Made by a program: the position numbers and the translations under genes
Assembly: GCA_013204985.1 (NCBI GenBank)
Contig: JABMLG010000009.1
Span: 124,001 to 188,000, forward strand
DNA: 64,000 bases
Direction of reading: 5' to 3'
Origin: Microbacteriaceae bacterium VKM Ac-2855
GTDB taxonomy: Bacteria > Actinomycetota > Actinomycetes > Actinomycetales > Microbacteriaceae
Shown here: positions 13,283-37,282 of the stretch, piece by piece
Position numbering within the stretch: position 1 is the first letter of the stretch
Layout: each line of letters begins with the position of its first letter
The notes under the pieces: model-generated
What the model was told of the DNA's origin: nothing
Databases searched by the model: none
What the model saw: only the letters and a program-made list of their open reading frames with translations

Positions 13283-14001
13283 CGGTTGACGTGCTCCAAG
13301 GATCTGAGTCCGCGTTCGAGGTGGAACTGGGTGTAAGCCGCCACCACGCCGGAGGCGCGGGACCGGGTGCCGTGCTCGGCTCCCTCCGCTGCGGCCCAGT
13401 CGCCGGTGAGCAGGGCGCCGAGGTGCTCGACGACCTCCAGGGTGACGCGTGGCGCTCCGGGCGGCGTGCAATCGGGGCACACCACGCCGCCCATCCGCAC
13501 CTCGATCGCGCTGTGCGGGCCCGGGGCGCCGCAGCGGGCGCAGTCCTCGAAGCTCGGTGCCCACCCCGCGATCGAGAGTGACCGCAGCAGGTAGGAGTCG
13601 AGCGTGAGGGTGGGAGTGTGCTCGGAGCGGCTGAGCGAGCGCAACGCGCCGACGAGGAGCAGATATTGCTGCAGAGAGGCGTCCGCATCGGTGAGTCGGT
13701 CGGCCGTCTCGACCATGGCGTTCGCCGCCGTGTAGGAGTCGTAGTCGGCCGCGATCAGAGCTCCGTACGCCCCGATCGACTCGGCCTGGTTCACGATGTC
13801 GAGGTTGCGGCCTTCGTAGAGCTGGAGGTCGGCGACCATAAAGGGCTCGAGGCGCGAACCGAACTTCGAGCCCGTTTTGCGCACGCCCTTCGCGACGGCG
13901 CGGATCTTGCCGTGCTGGCGCGACAGCATCGTCACGATCCGGTCGGCTTCGCCCAGCTTGTGGGTGCGCAGCACAACGGCTTCGTCACGATAAGTGGGCA
14001 T
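13279..14001 (-). CDS. recO: DNA repair protein RecO
   Basis: A 240-residue protein of the RecFOR pathway that loads RecA at single-strand gaps. The N-terminal OB fold [21 protein letters not shown] is diagnostic, and the zinc module CARCGAP...CPDC is intact. ATG 14001 matches the usual N-terminus; ATG 14010 three codons earlier is possible, with GAGAGG close upstream. First gene of the recO-uppS-oxidoreductase set. Confidence 0.95.
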
Positions 14002-14085
14002 GCAGGTCATTATCCTCTCGACCCCCGACAGTGAGCAGGATGCCGCGCGGTCGGTACGCCCCGAGGCCGCAGACGATCTGTCACG

Positions 14086-14766
14086 ATGGTGGCCGTGCCC
14101 GCCGCCGTCTTCAGCATCCCCGCCTGGGCCGATCTGCTCGCCATCGCGATCGGTTGCCTCCAGGGCGCGATGTTCGCCGGCGAGTTCCGCGACCGCCGGA
14201 TCGATCTGCTCGGCGTTGCGATCATCGGCACCGCGGTCGGGCTCGGCGGAGGCGTGCTGCGCGACCTGCTGCTCCAAGCTCCGCTCGTGGCCCTACACAC
14301 CAACTCATACCTGCTGGTCGCGGTGCTCGCCTCCTTGTTCGGCATGCTCCTGCAGCATCTCTTCAACCGACTCGACGGTGTCATCACAGCGCTGGACGCA
14401 CTGACGATCGGCCTGTTCGGCGCGATCGGAACGACAAAGGCGCTCTCGCTCGGTGTGCCCGAGGTGCCCGCGATCTTCGTCGGCACCATCTCGGCGGTGG
14501 GCGGCTCGGTGGTGCGCGACATCCTGCTGAACCGCCCGATCGCGCTGATGCACGTCGGATCGCTCTACGCGATCGCCGCTCTGGCCGGCACCGTCGTGCT
14601 CGTCGTCTTCGTGCACTTCGGCATCCTGATCGACTTCGCCGCACCGATCGGGGTCGCGGTGACAACGGTGATCAGACTGCTCGCCGTGCGTTACGGCTGG
14701 AGCCTCCCGGAACAACGTGCGCTCAGCCGAGTGCCGCGACTGCGCTGGCGCAAGCGCGAGAACTGA
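14086..14766 (+). CDS. TRIC-type (UPF0126) cation channel-like membrane protein
   Basis: A 226-residue protein with about seven hydrophobic helices. The two inverted repeats characteristic of bacterial TRIC channels are seen: [21 protein letters not shown] and [19 protein letters not shown], each with the GGxxRD motif. Family members are trimeric potassium-conducting channels in structural work; in-cell role is unclear. It is divergent from recO and its 3' end faces the stem-loop array. Confidence 0.85.
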
Positions 14767-14790
14767 GCAGAGTGCCGGGCTCGTGCTCGC

Positions 14791-15720
14791 GCACTCCGAG
14801 GCCGGATGGGGAGGCCCGGGTTGTCGCGAAGCGTCCATCCGACGGCCGTCGCGGACGATTCACGCCCACCCGGACCCGTATCCACGCCTCCGACGCCGGA
14901 CGGGGAAGCCCGGGTTGTCGCAAAGCGTCCACCCGGCGGCCGTCGCGGACGATACACGCCCACCCCGACCCGTATCCACGCCTCCGACGCCGGACGGGGA
15001 AGCCCGCGTTGTCGCAAAGCGTCCATCCGGCGGCCGTCGCGGACGATTCACGCCCACCCCGACTTGTTCACACCTCCGACGAGCGGACGGGGAGGCCCGG
15101 GTTGTCGCGAAACGTCCACCCGACGGCCGTCGCGGACGATCCACGCCCACCCCGACCCGTATCCACGCACCCGACGACCGGATGGGGAGGCCCGGGTTGT
15201 CGCCAAGCGTCCACACGGCGGCCGTCGCGGACGATTCACGCCCACCCCGACCCGTATCCACGCACCCGACGACCGACGAGGCGACCCGCGTTGTCGCGAA
15301 GCGTCCACCCGGCGGCCCTCGCGGACGATTCACGCCCACCCCGACCCGTATCCACGCATCCGAGGCCGGACGAGGCGACCCGGGTTGTCGCGAAACGTCC
15401 ACCCGACGGCCGTCGCGGACGATACACGCCCAGCCCGACCCGTATCCACGCACCCGACGACCGACGAGGCGACCCGCGTTGTCGCGAAACGTCCACCCGA
15501 CGGCCGTCGCGGACGATCCACGCCCACCCCGACCCGTATCCACGCACCCGACGACCGGATGGGGAGGCCCGGGTTGTCGCCAAGCGGCCATCCGGCGGCC
15601 GTCGCGGACGATTCACGCCCACCCCGACCGTATCCACGCACCCGACGACCGGACGGGGAGGCCCGGGTTGTCGCGAAGCGTCCACCCGGCGGCCGTCGCG
15701 GACGATACACGCCCACCCCG
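14791..15720. repeat. Array of ten tandem 93-95 bp stem-loop units
   Basis: The marker TTGTCGC recurs at 14821, 14915, 15009, 15102, 15197, 15291, 15385, 15479, 15574 and 15668. A partial unit (14791-14820) opens the array and the last unit is cut at 15720; together they make one unit. Each unit holds an imperfect inverted repeat: the left arm GTTGTCGCGAAGCGTCC pairs with the right arm GGACGATTCACGCCCAC at 13 of 17 positions, around a loop that in several units contains the palindrome CGACGGCCGTCG. The remainder is a linker whose end varies between four versions. The period is not a multiple of three, so the long open frames here are artefacts. Units 4 and 8 are identical over 95 bases. It lies between the convergent TRIC-type gene and leuA. 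Confidence 0.95.
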
Positions 15721-15848
15721 TCGGTCGGTGCGGCGGCGTCCAGCCGTCGACAACGGGCTTCGCGCCGATGCGAGCGACGCGCGGCTCGACGATGTCGCCG
15801 AAGAACGCATCGCACCGCGTGAGGCCGCGGTCGAATTGCGCCGGGTCC
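15721..15848. other. Unassigned segment between the array and the leuA hairpin
   Basis: About 130 bases with no stop codon in one minus-strand frame, reading as a protein-like segment (CDAFFGDIVEPRVARIGA and following PVVDGWTPPH). It has no start or stop of its own and runs into the array. It may be a gene remnant into which the repeats expanded, or chance. I do not recognise it. Confidence 0.25.
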
Positions 15849-15849
15849 G

Positions 15850-15894
15850 GGGTTGTCACTCGTCCCGCGACGCGGCGAGACCGAGCGACAACCC
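15850..15894 (-). terminator. leuA terminator hairpin, related to the repeat family
   Basis: The stem starts eight bases after the leuA stop. GGGTTGTC pairs with GACAACCC at the base, then CTCG and GAGT/CGGTC regions continue with one wobble and one bulge up to GCGG/CGCG near the loop. The arm reads GGGTTGTCACTCGTCCCGCG on the plus strand and closely matches the hairpin at 56117. Confidence 0.7.
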
Positions 15895-15902
15895 GTCGAC
15901 GG

Positions 15903-17783
<1,881 letters not shown>

Positions 17784-26346: not shown

Positions 26347-26408
26347 GCCCGGGTCATCACGAACCGTCCCTCAACCGGCGGAAACGGACGGGATGCGACC
26401 ACCCGGGC
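26347..26408 (-). terminator. Nested hairpin after dnaJ, related to the 94-bp units
   Basis: The outer arms GCCCGGGT (26347-26354) and ACCCGGGC (26401-26408) and the inner arms CCGTCC (26364-26369) and GGACGG (26386-26391) make a forked stem after the dnaJ stop. From 26348 to 26369 it matches 18 of 22 bases of the array unit's left arm with its CCCGGG lead-in. Confidence 0.6.
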
Positions 26409-28894: not shown

Positions 28895-29272
28895 ATGTCT
28901 CAGCCTCACACCGGCGCCAACCCGCCCGCCGCCGCACCTCTCACCGAGGCGGAGGATCGCCAGTGGGCGTCCTTTGCGCACCTGGGCGGCATCATCAGCG
29001 TGCTGCCCTCGCTCATCATCTGGCTCGTCTTCCGAGATCGCGGGCGCTTCACCGGCACCGAGGCCAAGGAGGCGCTGAACTTCCAGCTCACCCTCCTCGG
29101 TGTGCACGTGATCGCCTGGATCCTCGACGCGACCCTGGTGGGCGCGATCATCGGCATCCCCCTCGACCTCGCCGCGTGGGCCGTCGGCATCGTCTACTCG
29201 ATCCTCGCCTTCCTCAAAGCGAAGGACGGTATTGCGTACCGGTACCCCTTCGCGGTGCGTCTGATCACATAG
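28895..29272 (+). CDS. DUF4870 membrane protein, first copy
   Basis: A 125-residue protein with three hydrophobic segments. WASFAHLGGIISVLPSLIIWLVF and TEAKEALNFQLTLLG are DUF4870 marks (a Tic20-like fold of unknown role). AAGGGAA precedes the ATG. The second copy downstream has the same length and layout, so the two look like a tandem duplication. The stop codon lies within a triplicated 18-base repeat. Confidence 0.85.
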   Translation: MSQPHTGANPPAAAPLTEAEDRQWASFAHLGGIISVLPSLIIWLVFRDRGRFTGTEAKEALNFQLTLLGVHVIAWILDATLVGAIIGIPLDLAAWAVGIVYSILAFLKAKDGIAYRYPFAVRLIT

Positions 29273-29318
29273 CGTCCATTCGTCACACAGCGTCCGCTCG
29301 TCACATAGCGTCCGCTCG
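29265..29318 (+). repeat. Three 18-bp tandem repeats spanning a stop codon
   Basis: TCACATAGCGTCCATTCG, TCACACAGCGTCCGCTCG and TCACATAGCGTCCGCTCG start at 29265, 29283 and 29301. The first copy contains the TAG stop of the DUF4870 gene; the second copy has CAG instead and the third TAG again, all in the same frame. Confidence 0.85.
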
Positions 29319-36196: not shown

Positions 36197-36211
36197 GAAT
36201 GGGTGCGGGGC

Positions 36212-36247
36212 CAGGGGTTGGCCGGGGTCAGGGGTTGGCCGGGGTCA
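36212..36247 (-). repeat. 17-bp tandem repeat spanning the holA stop
   Basis: CAGGGGTTGGCCGGGGT occurs at 36212-36228 and 36229-36245 and begins again at 36246. On the minus strand the holA TGA opens the repeat, so two further in-line TGA-containing copies follow the gene. Confidence 0.8.
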
Positions 36248-37282
36248 GGGGCGGCGGCCGCGGGCGGAGATGACGGTGACCATGCGTTCGAGGGCGTAGA
36301 CCGGGTCGCGGCCACCGCCCTTGACGTTCTCGTCGGCCTCCGCGACGGTCTCGATCGCCACGCCGAGACCCTCGCCGGTCCAGCCCTGCAGGTCGCGGCG
36401 CGCGCGGTCCACCTGCCACGGGGCGATGCCGTAGCGCTGCGCGACCTGGTTCGAACCCTCCCGGGAACCGGCGACTTTCGCCATGGTGCGCAGCTTGCTC
36501 GCGAAGGCGGCGACGATGGGCACCGGATCCGCGCCGGACGCGAGCGCGTGGCGCAGCGCGATCAGCGCCTCGCCATGACGGCCGGCGATCGCCGCATCCG
36601 CGACCGTGAACGCGGTGGTCTCGACGCGGCCGCTGTAGTACTTGGCGACCGTCGCCTCCGTGATGTCGCCGGCCACATCCGCCATCAGCTGCTGACACGC
36701 GGCGGCCAGCTCATCGAGATCGTCGAGGAATGCCGCGACCAGCGCACGCACCGCTCCCGTCGAGACCTTCCGCCCGGCGCTGCGGAACTCGGCTGCCGCG
36801 AAGTCGACCTTGTCGCTCTCGCGTTTGAGCTCGGCGCAGACGATCTCGACGCCGTCACCGAGCCCGCCACGGATCGCGTCGAGCAGTTTCTTGCCGCGCA
36901 CTCCCCCTCCGTGGCGGAGGACGAGCGTCGTGCTCTCGGCGGGTCGCTCGAGGTAGCCGAGCGCCTCCAGCAGGAAGGCGTCGGTGCACTTCTCGACGTT
37001 CGTCACGCGGATCAACCGCGGCTCGTCGAAGAGCGACGGGCTGGCGAGGGTGAGCAGCTCCCCCGGCGCGTACGCGTCGGCGGAGATGTCGTGCACCTCG
37101 AGGCTCGGATCCTCGGCGCGCAGGAAGTCGCGGAGGAATCGCATCGACCGTTCCGCCAGGAACTTCTCGGGCCCGGTGATCAGCACGATGGACGCCGGCC
37201 GCGCCTGATCCCAACGCAATTGCGGGATCGCGACCTTCGCCGACGTCTTCGTCGCGCCCCGCGCGGGTGCTCTGCCGGCCAT
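36245..37282 (-). CDS. holA: DNA polymerase III delta subunit
   Basis: A 345-residue clamp-loader wrench subunit that opens the beta clamp. VLITGPEKFLAERSMRFLR and the central helices LDDLDELAAACQQLMADVAGDIT match actinobacterial HolA. GGAGG precedes the ATG at 37282. The comEC frame continues over its first 430 bases in another frame. Confidence 0.93.
   Translation of the reverse strand: MAGRAPARGATKTSAKVAIPQLRWDQARPASIVLITGPEKFLAERSMRFLRDFLRAEDPSLEVHDISADAYAPGELLTLASPSLFDEPRLIRVTNVEKCTDAFLLEALGYLERPAESTTLVLRHGGGVRGKKLLDAIRGGLGDGVEIVCAELKRESDKVDFAAAEFRSAGRKVSTGAVRALVAAFLDDLDELAAACQQLMADVAGDITEATVAKYYSGRVETTAFTVADAAIAGRHGEALIALRHALASGADPVPIVAAFASKLRTMAKVAGSREGSNQVAQRYGIAPWQVDRARRDLQGWTGEGLGVAIETVAEADENVKGGGRDPVYALERMVTVISARGRRP

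Follow-up and report, generated by a model that had tools for sequence, protein, structure and literature searches.

A family of REP/BIME-like palindromic repeats in one actinobacterial order, with tandem arrays between genes in one clade

The MIRU of mycobacteria are tandem intergenic units, similar in length to the ones described here and likewise found in actinobacteria. Closest in behaviour are the REP/BIME elements, which are GC-rich, imperfect intergenic palindromes with a bias for convergent or 3′ sites; they are targets of insertion sequences (IS), provide sites for gyrase and IHF and form large clusters in which they are reiterated in tandem with flanking DNA, many of them as heterodimers (PMC3733652, PMC1525189). 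Descriptions of REP elements come predominantly from gamma- and alphaproteobacteria (PMC3733652). RepRanger counted palindromes in three Actinomycetota, an Arthrobacter among them (PMC12306157), i.e., in the phylum of the genome studied here; the comparison is with a table row of counts.

The palindrome family that we describe here works most like REP/BIME, yet fails membership by length, end tag and transposase. It is likewise palindromic, intergenic and present in many copies (143 units in 36 clusters), and shares the bias for convergent or 3′ sites (11 of 29 clusters versus 35 of 205 background gene pairs, p 0.013). It differs in a unit length of about 60 bp (59–62 bp in our alignments) instead of 20–40 bp. 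The ends of the unit pair with each other, without the GTAG/CGTC end tag of the definition as worded in PMC3733652, and CGTC occurs inside the arm. The Y1 transposase (RAYT) that goes with the GTAG type was not found in the window's own genome (PF01797), the arrays are mostly head-to-tail in one orientation, and the family was found here in one actinobacterial order only. We regard these sequence-conserved palindromes as newly described cousins of the E. coli REP/BIME elements.

In the window, i.e., the whole 64,000-nt stretch of DNA that was analysed, Tandem Repeats Finder returned an array with a period of 94 bp, 9.9 copies and 89% matches, whose score of 1390 is the highest among the ten rows for the window (Table 1). 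The ten units announced in the earlier note are thus confirmed, with the motif TTGTCGC in 10 of 10 and unit-to-unit distances of 93–95 bp. The palindrome is longer than the 17-base arms proposed there: the unit spans CCCGGGTT to CCACCCCG, an imperfect palindrome of 59–60 bp with arms of about 22 bp. A pattern for the arm (at most two mismatches) matches 13 times across the window, whereas shuffles average 2.6 matches; ten of the 13 fall inside the array and three at 29264–29314. Units 5 and 9, and units 6 and 8, are 95% identical, versus 81–92% for the remaining pairs, which makes block duplication or shuffling within the array plausible.

The array lies between genes that face each other, as had been stated: a gene for a PF03458 protein (Pfam name Gly_transporter), which we take to be TRIC-like, and leuA. 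The array is also non-coding, as previously proposed: a codon-usage gene caller placed no gene inside it or inside any other array, and we dropped the coding reading on that ground. Across positions 14001–16500, Rfam gave 0 matches to a known RNA family up to E 1.

Table 1. Positions of the repeat units and neighbouring genes in the window; bit scores of the units refer to covariance model R1 (see text).
Feature	Position	Strand	Remarks
Whole tandem array, ten units	14790..15720	.	spacing 93-95
Unit 1	14815..14873	+	R1 68.2 bits; left arm TTGT, right arm read backwards TGGG
Unit 2	14909..14967	+	64.1 bits
Unit 3	15003..15061	+	63.6 bits
Unit 4	15096..15154	+	62.7 bits
Unit 5	15191..15249	+	64.1 bits
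Unit 6	15285..15343	+	62.6 bits
Unit 7	15379..15437	+	53.7 bits
Unit 8	15473..15531	+	59.0 bits
Unit 9	15568..15626	+	62.9 bits
Unit 10	15662..15720	+	66.3 bits
Diverged single palindrome adjoining leuA	15847..15897	.	weak: R1 18 bits (E 0.04), R2 26.6 bits; fold z -3.9
Single family unit between two co-directional genes	26348..26406	.	49.5 bits
Upstream gene PF03458	14086..14766	+	3′ end 48 bp short of unit 1
leuA, convergent neighbour	15903..17669	-	codon-usage gene calls

We built covariance model R1 from an alignment (A1) of 47 units at 14 loci of the window's own genome (G000) and a sister species (G012), read on the strand with TTG in the left arm, with at most four distinct units per locus and two IS-cut units dropped. 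R1 has at least 150 matches in G000, both strands counted; at E 0.01, among 15 genomes of the genus, which we infer to be Rathayibacter, it matches G000 and G012 (104) only. When places fetched from these two genomes were scanned with no distinction between the arms, 42 sources yielded 179 units, of which 36 units in 9 fetched clusters belong to G012. The palindrome is imperfect and measures 59–61 bp, a length that the models favour. Clusters are nearly all intergenic, the exceptions being L135, where one unit falls within a doubtful gene call, and L141, an array overlapping a call by 56 bp. R1 found no match in twenty background stretches of G000 (400 kb), where about three clusters would be expected from an even spread; the clusters may be unevenly spread, or the cluster list may be near complete.

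The element also occurs elsewhere in the taxonomic family: R1 at E 1e-4 matches at least 13 of 398 family genomes, G000 and G012 included, and the matches inspected in the eleven others, most of them single, form near-perfect palindromes whose arms resemble CGAGTTGTCGCNNATCGACC. Sixteen of these together with one from G012 make up alignment A2 (17 palindromes) and its model R2; 19 elements of congeners, several of which carry palindromes with arms like CGATCCGTCRCGAACGG, make up alignment A3. R2 matches 14 of the 15 genomes of the genus at E 0.01 (own included), and, at E 1e-4, at least 46 of 396 genomes of the order (own included) and at least six of 396 in a sample of the phylum, namely our own and five others, all within the order; among the matches listed for that phylum sample, none falls outside the order. 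Genome sets larger than 40 were searched with stricter filters and 13 candidates scored per genome, so that these counts are lower bounds. Thus, in relatives, the element mostly occurs as a single near-perfect palindrome between genes, while the clade of G000 and G012 carries tandem arrays at many sites. A strict pattern of the own type had no match among the named genomes, a set that may leave out records close to the window, and the literature matches listed include no report of these repeats, which is weak evidence of absence.

Absence from all relatives, which the earlier note would have counted against the array if joined by evidence of an assembly artefact, is refuted by the sister genome, which carries arrays of its own; an artefact is unlikely given that the units differ from one another and that the family is present at many sites. 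By leuA identity, G012 stands next to G000 (94%, versus 82–86% for the others). In the gap that separates the PF03458 gene from leuA, G012 has one perfect palindrome, where G000 has the ten-unit array and a diverged palindrome (Table 1) that is the apparent counterpart of the single one in G012; the array is an addition at this locus. At four other orthologous pairs, G012 and G000 have 1 versus 3, 1 versus 2, 2 versus at least 4 with a further cut unit, and 4 versus at least 8 with a further cut unit; in these last two pairs, each G000 array continues across two contig ends, and the count of 8 includes a unit identified by eye. Units are thus more numerous in G000, and fold worse there, at each of the five orthologous sites, so that, within the sister pair, single or few good hairpins can be set against larger arrays with poorer hairpins at the same sites. 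For the larger G012 arrays L155, L156 and L010, the G000 loci fetched offer no counterpart, so that array growth has not, in general, gone one way.

When first units of different loci are compared (300 pairs), the raw likeness is 78% for arms, 52% for loops and 51% for the 24 bp that follow the unit, which suggests that each array probably copied its own local linker. Shuffling of linkers between units, another suggestion of the earlier note, is plausible within the array (units 5/9 and 6/8); between loci, likeness in the stretch that follows the unit is no more than the 51% just given.

Downstream of leuA, other congeners carry other kinds of palindromic repeat; by eye, we observed GAGGGAACCCC types in seven genomes (G001, G004, G005, G006, G008, G013 and G014) and GGTCTCGATACGCC types in four (G007, G009, G010 and G011), the loci overall being L173–L182 and L184. 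In the latter four, the PF03458 gene does not face leuA or is out of view. G002 and G003 show short stems only at this position (by eye).

Pairing and arm sequence partly come apart in the family. In A2, 90.3% of the cells are paired and 66 carry a double change versus 21.5 in shuffles; in A3, 94.3% are paired and 65 carry a double change versus 17.4; 0 of 500 shuffles reach either value, and the paired percentages lean upward because the rows were found with pairing-rewarding models. In A1, i.e., the array units, 76.4% of the cells are paired and 500 of 500 shuffles show at least as much covariation; column pair 8/55 is unpaired in 42 of 47 rows and 10/53 in 33 of 47. In the arm-neutral scan, 149 of 179 units combine a T arm with a G arm (17 T/T, 3 G/G and 10 other). 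This T/G rule is neither strict nor specific to arrays, as ten single-unit loci of the clade are mixed (four with like arms, four T/G and two other) and arrays L122 and L127 are mostly T/T.

Folded as RNA on both strands, the 21 loci with at least four units have a mean z of −1.96, the ten single-unit loci of the clade −4.57, A2 −7.7 and A3 −7.5, with mean energies of −33, −41, −44 and −47 kcal/mol, respectively. For their composition, the window units form a weak hairpin, with an average z of about −0.6 to −0.7 against dinucleotide shuffles; the absolute energy reaches about −29 kcal/mol on whichever strand folds better. Folded as DNA, unit 1 gives z −1.2 on the plus strand and −3.5 on the minus strand. 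Over 45 clusters, folding is worse with more copies (Spearman 0.45, p 0.002). Four G012 loci, in contrast, keep fair hairpins (z −3.1 to −4.0), which we count, together with the still low absolute energies of array units, against the binding-site reading given below.

At loci with at least four units, arms are more alike than linkers in 21 of 21 cases and than loops in 18 of 21 (within-locus means: arms 0.90 and 0.89, loop 0.78, linker 0.74), a comparison biased toward arm likeness since units were recognised by arm-like sequence. Homogenisation inside arrays could be an alternative cause of this likeness. The excess of arm over linker likeness would be better predicted by a sequence-specific double-stranded site than by a hairpin. 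A protein-binding array, one of the roles proposed in the earlier note, fits best because the arms are better conserved in sequence than in their pairing. The old question of RNA hairpin versus DNA-binding site has become testable here, as pairing and sequence partly come apart.

The placement of clusters was compared with gene pairs at least 75 bp apart in the window and 20 further stretches, a background that includes two window gaps holding units: 35 convergent, 114 co-directional and 56 divergent pairs out of 205. Clusters in G000 are convergent in 11 cases, co-directional in 15 and divergent in 3, with 7 at contig ends left out of the tally; in G012, the numbers are 2, 5 and 2. The convergent excess in G000 given above (p 0.013) is similar against all gene pairs (70 of 406, p 0.011), while the divergent deficit has p 0.066; that divergent sites are used at all (3 of 29 and 2 of 9 clusters) counts against binding sites. 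Of the 20 co-directional clusters in the two genomes, 15 lie closer to the neighbouring stop codon (p 0.02, hand count). Arrays show no significant strand preference relative to transcription (11 of 16, hand count).

Spacings between units concentrate at 82–85, 93–95 and 102–105 bp (favoured values of about 84, 94 and 104 bp); rarer ones are 73 bp, seen three times, and single values of 113, 114, 117 and 126, and off-peak values lie at 76, 79–81, 89, 91, 92, 100, 101, 120, 133 and 142–145. In a phase test at about 10.3 bp with 57 values collapsed within loci, R is 0.52 and 0 of 2000 jittered sets reach it; with values of 82–86, the dominant peak, left out, 32 values give R 0.39, reached by 33 of 2000 sets. 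Helical phasing is, thus, suggestive but not proven. Another genus (G305; L215, L216 and L217) has palindrome arrays with other arms and periods of 95, 105 and 120 bp, along with spacings of 86 and 96. With z between −2.3 and −6.5 for nine G305 units, that genus has not lost its hairpins, which also counts against the binding-site reading.

We tentatively favour, at less than even confidence, the reading that these are REP/BIME-like elements whose arrays serve as phased, putative protein-binding sites. The arrays would have grown by local tandem duplication, and each arm would be a half-site of a putative sequence-specific DNA-binding protein, for which a nucleoid-associated protein or a gyrase-like enzyme is a candidate. 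In tandem copies, the sites would face much the same side of the helix in the gaps between genes, above all in convergent gaps, where transcription would pile up supercoils and the protein might act on supercoiling. The recurrent arm mismatches may let arrays persist without long perfect hairpins, which replication and hairpin nucleases would remove. A fuller version, which we consider improbable, would make the element the order's own conserved palindromic site for a putative chromosome-organising protein, with helically phased convergent-gap arrays in some lineages, in which mismatches would weaken the hairpins while half-sites are kept.

Two other readings are serious rivals. The elements could be bidirectional terminators or hairpins of mRNA 3′ ends, with the array as a multi-copy stop between colliding transcripts, which we rate as somewhat unlikely. 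Each palindrome would stop polymerase or protect RNA from both sides. The single ones of relatives, with z −7.5 to −7.7, co-vary down to the inner stem (65–66 double-change cells versus 17–22 in shuffles); at least one gene ends into 26 of the 29 resolved G000 clusters, the stop-codon side is the nearer one in most co-directional cases, absolute energies stay low in array units (mean −33 kcal/mol), and 12 of 14 other genomes of the genus have a long palindrome, belonging to one of three types, downstream of leuA (by eye). The array units themselves speak against it, with a mean z of −1.96 (about −0.7 in the window), recurrent mismatches and, by eye, no U-tract after the window units; an ordinary GC hairpin already stands between the gene end and one G305 array (by eye), and we know of no need for conserved outer sequence in a terminator. 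The multi-copy terminator of the earlier note suits the single palindromes of relatives and is less probable for the window array, which folds poorly against shuffles.

The second serious rival is a neutral or selfish satellite, in which hairpin-prone palindromes slip in replication, grow in tandem without function and decay; we think it unlikely, even though copy number differs at five of five orthologous sites of the sisters, loci share no more than 51% likeness in the stretch that follows the unit, and hairpins worsen with copy number, both over the 45 clusters and at the five orthologous sites. Against such a satellite speak the greater likeness of arms than of linkers at all 21 loci (with the recognition bias), the T versus G arm difference in 149 of 179 units, the uneven distribution of spacings and the over-use of convergent sites. 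Finally, a mobile REP-like element moved in trans by a transposase would explain many dispersed copies and the IS30-type element in unit centres, but is very improbable: Y1_Tnp (PF01797) was not found in the own genome, whereas the same search was positive in 5 of 14 control genomes, several sites are common to both sisters, and a search for the left IS end in the 14 remaining genomes of the genus was negative. We dropped RAYT mobilisation for the lack of Y1_Tnp and a plasmid or phage origin because one 94-bp unit had no blastn match in plasmid or phage records.

At eight contig ends of the assembly, arrays contain an insertion element. IS30-type ends are found at or near unit centres at 8 of 8 contig-end junctions seen, on contigs C1, C4, C7, C9, C12 and C26 (L122, L125, L129, L130, L131, L134, L154 and L169). 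With one IS end as the query, G000 has four copies, all at contig ends, and none inside a contig; four further IS ends are of the other end type, seen at further contig ends, the places examined for that type. The first IS end had no match in the remaining 14 genomes of the genus, among them the sister with its arrays. It is 87% identical over 53 bp to stretches of plasmids from Arthrobacter, a genus which we assume to belong to the same order as the window's genome, and these stretches are annotated as hypothetical protein and IS30-family transposase. The unit as a MITE of this resident element was rejected, as the IS ends (GGCAGWGTCA) differ from the unit ends (by eye). REPs are targets of IS elements of five families (PMC1525189), and IS30 hot spots are nearly palindromic (PMC9333248). 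With these hot spots, our units share a near-palindromic target entered at its centre; unlike there, the units of a whole repeat family serve as targets here.

Two minor repeats of the window may be added. The three arm-pattern matches outside the array are direct 18-bp repeats near GTCACATAGCGTCCRCTC that look like half an arm without its partner; the first overlaps the stop codon of a DUF4870 gene, and no second site was found in 15 genomes at 3 mismatches. At 36206–36251, Tandem Repeats Finder reports a 17-bp tandem repeat, CGGGGTCAGGGGTTGGC, in 2.7 copies with 96% matches.
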